Position numbers and translations under genes: made by a program
In this document: in pieces, positions 5,651 through 8,052 of the stretch
Layout: the number at the start of each line of letters is the position of its first letter
Position numbering within the stretch: the stretch's first letter is position 1
Notes under the pieces: model-generated
Told to the model about the DNA's origin: nothing
The model's input: the letters and a program-made list of their open reading frames with translations, nothing else
The model's database searches: none
From: Cytophagales bacterium
GTDB lineage: Bacteria; Bacteroidota; Bacteroidia; Cytophagales; Spirosomataceae
Direction: 5' to 3'
Assembly (NCBI GenBank): GCA_013298025.1
Contig: JAAFJE010000001.1
Coordinates: 248,001 to 312,000 of the forward strand
DNA: 64,000 nucleotides

Positions 5651-6211
5651 ATGAAATATTTATTAGTTGGTTTAGGAAACATTGGCCCCGAATACCTCCT
5701 CACAAGGCACAACATTGGCTTTATGGTGATGGATAAAATAGCCCATACGTTTGAGGTGAAATTTAGCATGGAACGCCTCGCCTATCATGCAGAATTTAAG
5801 ACAAAAGGCAAACATTTTCACCTCATCAAGCCTACTACTTATATGAACCTCAGCGGCAAGGCTGTGAATTATTGGATGAAGGAATTAAAAATACCATCAG
5901 AAAATCTGCTTGTTACGACAGACGACATTGCACTTTCCTATGGTAAGCTACGTTTAAAAACCAAAGGCTCGCACGGGGGGCATAATGGCCTGCGTAATAT
6001 AGAAGAGGTATTGGGCTCACAACAATACAACCGCCTGCGTTTTGGGGTAGGCGACCAATTTGCCAAAGGTCGCCAAGTAGAATACGTCTTAGGTAATTTT
6101 ACGGAGAACGAAATGGCGGAACTTCCCTTGCATTTAGAGCGAGCCCATGAGATGCTTTTATGTGCTTGTACACAAGGCTTGGCTGTGGCCATGAATAAAT
6201 ACAACCAATGA
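5651..6211 (+). CDS. pth: Peptidyl-tRNA hydrolase
   Basis: Hydrolyses peptidyl-tRNA released from stalled ribosomes, recycling tRNA; an essential cytoplasmic enzyme. The 186-residue protein begins MKYLLVGLGNIGPEY and continues TRHNIGFMVMD, which contains the conserved catalytic His. It also has KPTTYMNLSGKAV and GSHGGHNGLRNIEEVLGSQQYNRLRFGVG, all Pth family signatures, at normal family length. I use the ATG at 5651 because the family starts directly at the first strand; an upstream in-frame ATG at 5618 adds 11 unrelated residues. It stands alone, facing away from the OmpA-like gene. Confidence 0.96.
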   Translation: MKYLLVGLGNIGPEYLLTRHNIGFMVMDKIAHTFEVKFSMERLAYHAEFKTKGKHFHLIKPTTYMNLSGKAVNYWMKELKIPSENLLVTTDDIALSYGKLRLKTKGSHGGHNGLRNIEEVLGSQQYNRLRFGVGDQFAKGRQVEYVLGNFTENEMAELPLHLERAHEMLLCACTQGLAVAMNKYNQ

Positions 6212-6753
6212 TTGTATTTTTTAAAGAATTTAATCATTGTATCAAAAATATACAATCAAAATATTATATAAGCGATATTATGAGTTTGCAAAATATTATT
6301 TTGAAACGATAGGGCTTGCTTCTTGCAATGTTGTTTTTACAACTTGATTTTGAAATACTTACAGCTATATTTTGTAAAAAAAAGCCTATTTTAAATTTGG
6401 AGAAGTCAAAAACTTTGCAGAACTTTGCAAAGAGGTCGCAGTAAAAAATATTTTGTACTAATCGACGAAAGCTTTTTTTGAAAAATATTAAAAAAAATAC
6501 GCTAAATAGTTGCTTTTTTCTGTTTTTTTCTAAAACTTTTCAACAATGTTTTTCGTTAGTATAATATGAAACCGATAAAGTTCTCTTTAAGTACTAATAC
6601 TTAAAAACAAAACCTTGTCGAAAAAGACAAAAACCTAACCAAAAAGCTATTAATTGATTACTAATGCTTCATTCGGCATACAACATTATCTTCTTGGTGC
6701 AGTTTTTGTGGGTATAGTAGCAGTGAACAAAAGCCCTAGGGCATAGACATATT
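6212..6753. other. Intergenic region without a gene upstream of the triple element
   Basis: Very AT-rich. No coding sequence is supported. It holds a small palindrome TTTAAGTA/TACTTAAA (6586-6593 and 6598-6605) and a doubled ACTTTGCA near 6410-6430. Confidence 0.5.
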
Positions 6754-6821
6754 TTTTTCATAGTTAAATAGGTTTAGAGGTAAGACGAGAAAGGGCGTGC
6801 TTGGTGAGTACGCCACTTTTT
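6754..6821 (+). ncRNA. Candidate small RNA, copy 1 of a tandem 41-nt element ending in a terminator
   Basis: A 41-base core (6754-6794) starting TTTTTCATAGTTAAATAGGT is followed by a hairpin, GGCGTGC (6794-6800) with GTACGCC (6808-6814), then a T-run (6817-6821). The core recurs almost unchanged at 6852 and 7001. The gene-free location, the conserved core and the variable but base-paired terminator suggest a short transcript. No Rfam family is recognised by eye. Confidence 0.45.
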
Positions 6822-6851
6822 ATCAAACCTACCTTTTGACTAATACAAGAT

Positions 6852-6920
6852 TTTTTCATAGTTAAATAGGTTTAGAGGTAAGACGGGAAAGGGCGTATTC
6901 TGTGAGTACGCCACTTTTTT
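6852..6920 (+). ncRNA. Candidate small RNA, copy 2 of the tandem 41-nt element
   Basis: Core 6852-6892 differs from copy 1 at one base (GACGGG for GACGAG). Its terminator pairs GGCGTATTC (6892-6900) with GAGTACGCC (6904-6912), including one G-U pair, then six T (6915-6920). The loop and upper stem differ from copy 1 while pairing is kept. Confidence 0.45.
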
Positions 6921-7000
6921 CAAAAAATAGCTTTTTTAAGAAATGTGTGGCAAAGGTCGATGCGAGAAAGAAGCTGTTGGAATGAACAAAAGTGCAGTTA

Positions 7001-7069
7001 TTTTTCATAGTTAAATAGGTTTAGAGGTAAGACGGGAAAGGACTTCGCCAATGGCAAAGTTCTTTTTTT
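7001..7069 (+). ncRNA. Candidate small RNA, copy 3 of the tandem 41-nt element
   Basis: Core 7001-7041 is identical to copy 2. The terminator has a different sequence: AAGGACTT (7038-7045) pairs with AAGTTCTT (7057-7064), capped by GCC/GGC (7047-7049, 7053-7055), then a T-run to 7069. It is followed only by the convergent gene at 7073, so the element does not lead into a + strand gene. Confidence 0.45.
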
Positions 7070-7072
7070 ATG

Positions 7073-7411
7073 TTAAAGCAATTCTTCTGCTGGAATCCAT
7101 AAATGCTTCTTGAAATCGACAACCTTGTCGTTTTTAACCATCACTCCTTCGGCAGCAAGCAGTCGTTCCATGGTGTCGCCACCAAAAAAATGCTTCCCCG
7201 AAAGTAATCCAGTACTATTGACAACCCGATGTGCCGGAATGGAGGCATCGGCATGACAGGCATTCATGGCCCAGCCAACCAATCTTGCACCGCTTTTTTT
7301 ACCCAAATAAGCCGCTATCGCTCCGTAGGTTGTCACCCGACCAGCCGGCACCAATCGCACCACTTGGTATATTTCATCAAAAATCGTGTTCTCTTTCATG
7401 CCTTTACCCAT
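7073..7411 (-). CDS. Alkyltransferase-like protein (ATL), MGMT DNA-binding fold without the acceptor Cys
   Basis: A 112-residue protein with the MGMT/Ogt C-terminal DNA-binding domain: VVRLVPAGRVTTYGAIAAYLG (helix-turn-helix region), SGARLVGWAMNAC and IPAHRVVNSTG. In true O6-alkylguanine transferases the active site is PCHRV; here it reads PAHRV, so the Cys is missing. Known ATL proteins bind O6-alkylguanine and hand the lesion to nucleotide excision repair, so this is probably a damage sensor rather than an enzyme. The start may be the ATG at 7399 (MKENTIF), which has an AAAGG-like sequence before it. It is convergent with the triple element. Confidence 0.88.
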   Translation of the reverse strand: MGKGMKENTIFDEIYQVVRLVPAGRVTTYGAIAAYLGKKSGARLVGWAMNACHADASIPAHRVVNSTGLLSGKHFFGGDTMERLLAAEGVMVKNDKVVDFKKHLWIPAEELL

Positions 7412-7473: not shown

Positions 7474-8052
7474 TCAACCTTGGGCTTGTTGCCGCTCGTT
7501 GATTTCTTGCACCAATGCTTCGTACCATTCCTCGCCGTATCGGCGGATAAGCGGCCCTTTTAAGAATTGATACAAAGGCACACCTAGCTGCTCGCCATGT
7601 GAGCAGGCATCCGAGCAAATATGCCAACGGTCGTAGTTGAGGGCATCAAATTCTTCGTATTTGGTAATTCTGATAGGATACAAATGGCAAGAAATGGGCT
7701 TTCTAAAATCAATTTTCCCATCCAAATAGGCTTGTTCGATGCCACATTTCAAAATACCTTTTTCATCGTATAGGGCATATACACATTCTCGACCCTCGAT
7801 AACAGGCGTAGAGAAATCGCCTTCCCAATCTTTCACATATTTACCTTCGGCTTCTATCACTGCCAAGCCTTCGGCTGAAAGATAGGGCTTTACTTCGTCG
7901 AAAACTTGGTCTAAAATGGCTAGTTCGTCCACTTCGAGTGGTGCACCCAAATCGCCTTCTACACAACAAGCCCCTTTGCATTTGAGCAAATCACAGACAA
8001 AAAATTGCTCGGCTATGTCGTCACTAATGACCGTATTATCAATTAAAATCAT
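7474..8052 (-). CDS. DUF3109 family protein
   Basis: A 192-residue cytoplasmic protein of the DUF3109 family, common in Bacteroidota and of unknown function. Visible: a Cys-rich N-terminus ([23 protein letters not shown]), later Cys residues in [38 protein letters not shown] and [10 protein letters not shown]. The spacing suggests bound metal, possibly a cluster resembling YkgJ-type Cys-rich proteins, though that is inference. The start ATG at 8052 has an AGGAGTAGGAT stretch just upstream. It lies 62 bases upstream of the ATL gene on the same strand. Confidence 0.85.

Follow-up and report, generated by a model that had tools for sequence, protein, structure and literature searches.

Small RNAs of the FopS kind are the closest described systems to the locus analysed here. 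As set out in the parts of PMC11697453 that treat them, FopS comprises 14 sRNAs in Bacteroides thetaiotaomicron whose 41-nt motif is enriched in RbpB peaks; FopS pairs with susC mRNA start regions and blocks translation, and RbpB relieves the block. The same parts describe FopS-14 as 3'-UTR derived, report phage-borne FopS, and give conservation as within Bacteroidaceae, from BLAST at word size 28. GibS is described as having its R1 seed region in common with FopS and annealing at start codons (PMC11697453, PMC7366714), the seed being an unstructured 5' stretch of 30-50 nt around start codons in the relevant part of PMC7366714. Among open-licence PMC texts, judged by title and the start of the abstract, we found no paper on FopS-like sRNAs outside Bacteroides; the excerpt of PMC12119571, on a Porphyromonas gingivalis RNA-binding protein, mentions FopS once.

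Here we analysed a 64,000-nt stretch of DNA, called the window (C1:248001-312000 of a 5.44-Mb assembly), from a Flectobacillus-like Cytophagales host. It contains an array that we interpret, with a probability of about three in four, as three paralogous trans-acting sRNA genes homologous to Bacteroides FopS and acting by start-region pairing.

Three copies of a conserved core

The near-invariant core that the original prediction saw repeated three times was recovered as the invariant 29-nt string CATAGTTAAATAGGTTTAGAGGTAAGACG, present exactly at 6759, 6857 and 7006, all on the + strand. No further 29-nt core occurs in the 64,000-nt window at up to 3 mismatches, and 100 dinucleotide shuffles gave 0. 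Identity to copy 1 across 85 nt is 87% for copy 2 and 64% for copy 3, and every + strand frame (3/3) of each copy contains stops. If the copies are independent genes, their RNAs would begin at UUUUUCAUAG, and the transcript ends of copies 1-3 are likewise predicted (Table 1). All five copies in the genome, including the two beyond the window, were matched at E <= 1.4e-5 by model R1; because R1 was built from copies 1-4, four of these loci trained it and only copy 5 is an independent find. R1 matches below copy 5 (C23:310612, E 0.0012, and weaker) were not counted as copies.

Table 1. Features of the array and its surroundings, in window positions, and the two copies elsewhere in the genome, in contig positions
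Feature	Position	Strand	Remarks
pth, peptidyl-tRNA hydrolase	5651..6211	+	PF01195, E 6e-62; conserved upstream neighbour of arrays
GAACAAAAG upstream of copy 1	6725..6733	+	same string at 6984-6992 (copy 3)
sRNA copy 1 (putative)	6751..6824	+	core 6754-6794, terminator hairpin ~6788-6821; R2 match 6751-6824
sRNA copy 2 (putative)	6849..6922	+	core, terminator hairpin ~6885-6919; R2 match
TGCAGTTATTTTT directly before copy 3 core	6993..7005	+	possible non-canonical promoter element or leader
sRNA copy 3 (putative)	6998..7071	+	core, sequence-different terminator ~7034-7068; R2 match
MGMT DNA-binding-domain gene	7073..7411	-	PF01035; converges on copy 3
DUF3109 gene	7474..8052	-	PF11307; next neighbour, outside the system
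copy 4	C1:200638-200717		between pyrB-like and TrmH-like genes (by eye from translations)
copy 5	C9:121386-121463		changed 5' end

Each copy had been described as carrying its own, differing terminator, and the hairpins are as stated: copies 1 and 2 have the stem base GGCGT...ACGCC in common and differ in the upper stem, and copy 3 has another stem. A simple terminator scan detects the terminators of copies 1 and 2 and misses that of copy 3, and single-sequence folding gives z = -2.1 to -2.5 for copies 1-3, which is modest taken singly. In alignment A3, made of the best 150 of 163 matches and fitted to R1's structure, 93.9% of the cells in the 104 distinct rows are paired, compared with 76.3% (sd 0.6) after shuffling and 53.8-62.6% after sliding. 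Changes on both sides in at least one row were found for 15 of 16 terminator-helix pairs (shuffled mean 11.4 over the whole structure), whereas a four-pair helix inside the core has no both-side change in these 104 rows and is without support. Since the terminator pairs covary and the core helix shows no covariation, the hairpin is conserved as shape and the core as letters.

The sequence said to be common to copies 1 and 3 just upstream proved to be GAACAAAAG (Table 1). It lies 34 nt before CATAG at copy 1 and 22 nt before it at copy 3. A promoter box is improbable at such unequal distances from the core, and this reading was rejected. A canonical-looking -7 box, TAAATTTG, lies at window positions 6392-6399 (+), ~360 nt before copy 1, and could drive a long transcript across the array; the number of such boxes here is not above chance.

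Tandem, intergenic elements with hairpins might also be leaders or attenuators, or a non-functional dispersed repeat. The earlier statement that no + strand gene lies downstream holds at close range: the two genes that follow, reaching to 8052, are encoded on the minus strand, the first having its stop codon 2 nt past the model end of copy 3, and no long + strand ORF starts before 8278. Within 1.2 kb 3' of the array no long + strand ORF starts; there are only short ORFs (<70 aa) inside the minus-strand genes. This disfavours a leader or attenuator, and the covarying stems, the kept core and the constant position after pth (below) speak against both versions. A search for a known leader family agreed: at gathering thresholds Rfam gave zero matches at the locus, no leader match rose above chance level, and matches other than RF04319 and RF04180 had E >= 0.67. 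Sub-threshold matches to PyrR and PYLIS_2 were set aside as chance level. We regard leaders or a dispersed repeat as very improbable.

Relatives, array order and upstream elements

Conservation elsewhere is strong: the check proposed with the original prediction, a search for the core and tandem copies in other Cytophagales, gave same-strand arrays in other genera. At E <= 0.1, R1 has matches in 32 of 59 genomes, counting the window's own, with arrays of up to six copies in several genera; a good many of the lowest-scoring matches are doubtful. The family is patchy, since 27 of the 59 relatives have no match at this threshold. The exact pattern TTTCATAGTNNAATAGGTTTANAG retrieved 66 stretches from GTDB contigs and 1 from viral contigs, with titles naming Flectobacillus, Arcicella, Pseudarcicella, Aquirufa, Sandaracinomonas, Siphonobacter, Spirosoma fluviale (MAGs), Cytophagaceae or Cytophagales MAGs and one Cellulophaga. 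The last of these (L112, NZ_JAAALB010000018.1) is titled Cellulophaga sp. BC115SP, an organism name that looks wrong.

These 67 stretches and five others (L003, L004, L015, L057, L066) make up a set of 72, some of them from near-identical strains or one and the same contig. Accepting copies at up to 1 mismatch in a 21-nt core gave 149 distinct copies, located in 69 of the stretches. The 25-nt string TTTCATAGTTAAATAGGTTTAGAGG is identical in 139 of the 149, a constancy that is partly selected because the exact search pattern is present in 147 of the 149. At least 2 copies stand together in 48 of 71 same-strand clusters, and spacing between copies is 94-160 nt in 65 of 78 cases. Degenerate partial copies (GATAGCTTTAGAGGTAAGAC-like, 5' part missing) lie just upstream of array copies in L132, L120 and L129 and suggest birth and death of array members.

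Several more divergent forms were also seen. In L015:887-964, L069:518-590 and L072:490-565, TAGGTTTAGAGGT and a hairpin are kept and the 5' end is different; a protein may bind the inner TAGGTTTAGAGGT part, with the 5' end serving as a seed of its own. In L238, L239, L280 and L281, which represent four genera of family f23, a different form, TTTTCATAGGATAAGGTTTAAnGG...GAT-hairpin, runs from position 1501. In another family, two genera have GGTTTTTCATAATTTAAAGTTTGGTTGGTTATTTAGG and a hairpin in common, with a similar upstream stretch (L216:1501-1572, L227:1501-1572); having the same UUUUUCAU start, these loci may represent one more relative.

The viral contig, IMGVR_UViG_3300048672_001203, is from a phage: judged by eye, some of its ORFs resemble terminase, portal and dUTPase genes, and there are two tRNA-like genes. 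It carries one copy on the minus strand (L141:4714-4793). This copy stands beside the tRNA-like genes, and a further hairpin with a T run shortly precedes it.

The arrays occupy a conserved place after pth. This gene is present in 53 of the 69 copy-bearing stretches, and in 52 of these 53 the next copy is on the same strand, 448-805 nt downstream of the end of the pth match; the one departure, L113, comes from elsewhere on the contig that carries the array of L132. Among the 16 stretches without pth, several start or stop within ~0.3 kb of the first copy (e.g. L081, L085, L127, L128, L135), some carry a lone TTAA copy (a subtype defined below), and the phage contig is also among them. For 33 loci of other families, with flanks of up to 1.5 kb, a search with the protein encoded in the window found no pth. 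Such a fixed upstream neighbour on the same strand would also be expected if the copies were processed 3' products (3'-UTR sRNAs) of a long pth transcript and had no promoters of their own, as has a precedent in the 3'-UTR-derived FopS-14 of B. thetaiotaomicron (in the FopS part of PMC11697453). Against this, a terminator at each copy should halt read-through into the next.

The sequences upstream of the copies bear on the same question. By the sequence after the core, the copies divide into 55 of a GAGGTTAA-like type (TTAA), 57 with GTAAGA (AAGA) and 37 others, and all three window copies are of the AAGA subtype. Exactly 18 nt before CATAG, TAnnTT[T/C]G is found in 49 of the 55 TTAA copies, 0 of the 57 AAGA copies and 0 of the 37 others; the six TTAA exceptions carry the common string GAG[A/G]TTAGCGTTTTTT in its place. 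TAnnTTTG is the promoter box of Bacteroidota, and a promoter scan that used E. coli-type hexamers is a poor fit to the host's phylum. All 36 same-strand clusters that mix TTAA with another kind have exactly one TTAA copy, in last place. The TTAA copy of the window genome stands 54 kb from the array, and in some Arcicella stretches (e.g. L104, L138) it is likewise separate; copies 1-3 are without the canonical box of copy 4.

The lack of a canonical box at a fixed place in AAGA and other copies fits processing from pth, but more promoter-like elements recur there: TGCAGTTATTTT before the core in 14 of 57 distinct AAGA copies, copy 3's kind, and a TAGATT-type box with AGTAG in 32 of 37 others, the TTAGATTGT element having been counted without a fixed position relative to the core. 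These non-canonical elements would represent a second promoter type, and we consider processing of a pth transcript unlikely.

Predicted pairing with start regions

For the preferred reading, as trans-acting sRNA genes, each gene would make an RNA of roughly 70 nt, with the unstructured 5' part UUUUUCAUAGUUAAAUAGGUUUAGAGGUAAGAC followed by an intrinsic terminator. Its UUUUCAUAG, complementary to CUAUGAAAA (a Met-Lys start), would pair with translation initiation regions and block initiation, as FopS does, and an RRM protein would presumably be partner or antagonist. The genome encodes one RRM_1 protein of 105 aa. This function is proposed from homology and from the seed statistic given next, and transcription, repression, protein partner and targets are predictions.

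The mean duplex energy of the 34-nt core with 288 start regions was -11.90. Shuffled cores, 60 in number, averaged -10.86 (sd 0.37), and 1 of them was as low. Gene interiors show little pairing excess (10 of 60 shuffled cores as low), and the start-minus-interior difference of the core lies below all 60. The sample consisted of 464 kb of the 5.4 Mb plus SusC stretches, with start codons chosen by rule, some of them doubtful, and accessibility ignored. Within these bounds, anti-start pairing of the core is supported statistically, for the start regions as a set. SusC genes as specific targets are not supported: 46 SusC-like starts showed no clear advantage over 303 other ORFs (p = 0.054), and 12 of 60 shuffled cores gave a difference as large. 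Those 46 were what remained of 47 SusC-like matches over the cut-off after one without its start was dropped, the longest ORF per SusC stretch was used unchecked, and SusC genes stayed in the background.

A constant core may also serve chiefly to bind protein. CsrB-type RNAs set the level of free CsrA through their copy number, and array copies could in the same way set the level of free RRM protein, with base-pairing secondary. The identical 25-nt core in most copies would suit this, although it is partly built in by fetching, as would the few members (L015, L069, L072) that keep only inner TAGGTTTAGAGGT with a changed 5' end; RbpB binds the 41-nt FopS motif in B. thetaiotaomicron, according to the FopS part of PMC11697453. 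Two findings point the other way: the core favours start regions over gene interiors more strongly than any of the 60 shuffled cores, and repression by pairing is reported for B. thetaiotaomicron in that part of PMC11697453. We think it improbable that the copies are mainly a protein decoy.

Relation to FopS and other known systems

At relaxed thresholds the FopS model RF04319 covers copies 1-3 over model positions 1-71, at 24.3, 25.6 and 23.8 bits, and scores copies 4 and 5 at 26.6 and 24.6 bits; all five thus lie under the gathering cut-off (23.8-26.6 vs 56 bits). The five copies are nevertheless exactly the top five RF04319 loci genome-wide (E 0.16-0.58), with a margin of only 1.7 bits to the sixth, at 22.1 bits. 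With strict filters and E <= 0.01 RF04319 finds nothing in this genome. Singly weak, the top-five set appears hard to explain jointly without homology.

For the other direction, model R2 combines 18 sequences, of which one is a phage copy and 17 belong to the window's family; weak, partly similar matches in other genomes (L039, L041, L043, L044, L046, L047, L048, L054) were left out. With strict filters R2 at E <= 0.01 matches 15 of 394 phylum genomes, own included; in this set of 394, RF04319 exceeds its cut-off in 5. R2 reaches 3 of these 5 FopS genomes, at two over-cut-off RF04319 places and one place scoring 33.9 bits. With laxer filters in the five FopS genomes it recovers 28 of 35 over-cut-off places, which are 28 of its 39 matches at E <= 1. 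Five comparison genomes gave 11 R2 matches, the best at 32.4 bits, although one of them, G070, is no clean negative, being of the genus of G151, which has a sub-cut-off RF04319 match. Because comparison genomes reach 32.4 bits, single R2 scores near 30 decide nothing, and the weight rests on the coincidence of R2 and RF04319 places. A homologous 5' core is thus supported both ways, RF04319 leading to the five copies and R2 to 28 of 35 FopS places, and on these grounds we favour homology to FopS.

A joint model, R3, matches 22 of 396 class genomes at E <= 0.001 with strict filters, a scan that is not independent, as R3 was trained on loci of some genomes later matched. The 22 are the window's own genome, 13 in families f29, f30, f128 and f137, and 8 others; the other listed genomes of the window's order had no R3 match at this threshold. 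From their RF04319 scores, f29 and f30 are probably Bacteroidales. These results suggest that the FopS family reaches much wider than reported. The original prediction of a tandem sRNA family with a conserved seed-like part stands on its multicopy, intergenic nature, covarying terminators and conserved arrays, and it had missed the kinship with FopS.

One tentative interpretation is an ancient sRNA regulon of Bacteroidia, in which anti-start-codon seed and protein site would be combined in one core that predates the divergence of the window's order from the FopS-bearing families. The core would then have stayed near letter-for-letter constant while paralogs came to differ in terminators and promoters; in the ordered Cytophagales array after pth, a housekeeping-type promoter would drive the last member and a different signal the rest, with copy number and promoter type setting the dose. 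Since phages too carry a copy, spread by phages is the main alternative to descent. If the relatives hold, this would rank with the more broadly conserved families of trans-acting sRNAs in its phylum. The role of the core could be studied in non-gut species, in which its origin cannot lie in bile or gut glycans, and the ordered array, with its two putative promoter types, offers a natural way to ask why bacteria retain many copies of one sRNA.

BTnc231 (RF04180) resembles the locus in that its model starts with UUUUUUUCAUAG and a FopS-like stretch and matches window positions 6749-6918 at E 0.0006, but at 28.1 bits against a cut-off of 80.4 and in a gapped match that spans copies 1 and 2. GibS of B. 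thetaiotaomicron, compared by its published description, differs in its length of 145 nt and in having a second seed region, R2. FopS is the closest: both have a collinear 5' part (here UUUUUCAUAGUUAAAUAGGUUUAGAGGUAA, FopS consensus UUUUUCAUgGUAUUAGAUUUAAGGUUAA) that is single-stranded and followed by a Rho-independent hairpin, both are multicopy, and FopS-type loci have a TAnnTTTG box shortly before the core (by eye), as does the last array member. The present family differs in two inserted core bases and its 24-27 bits against the cut-off of 56, in tandem arrays at a conserved place after pth, in the lack of a canonical box in most array members, and in that a SusC preference was not seen. 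The FopS kind of sRNA is thus known, and new here are the reach beyond Bacteroidaceae, the arrays, the two putative promoter types and the phage-borne copy.
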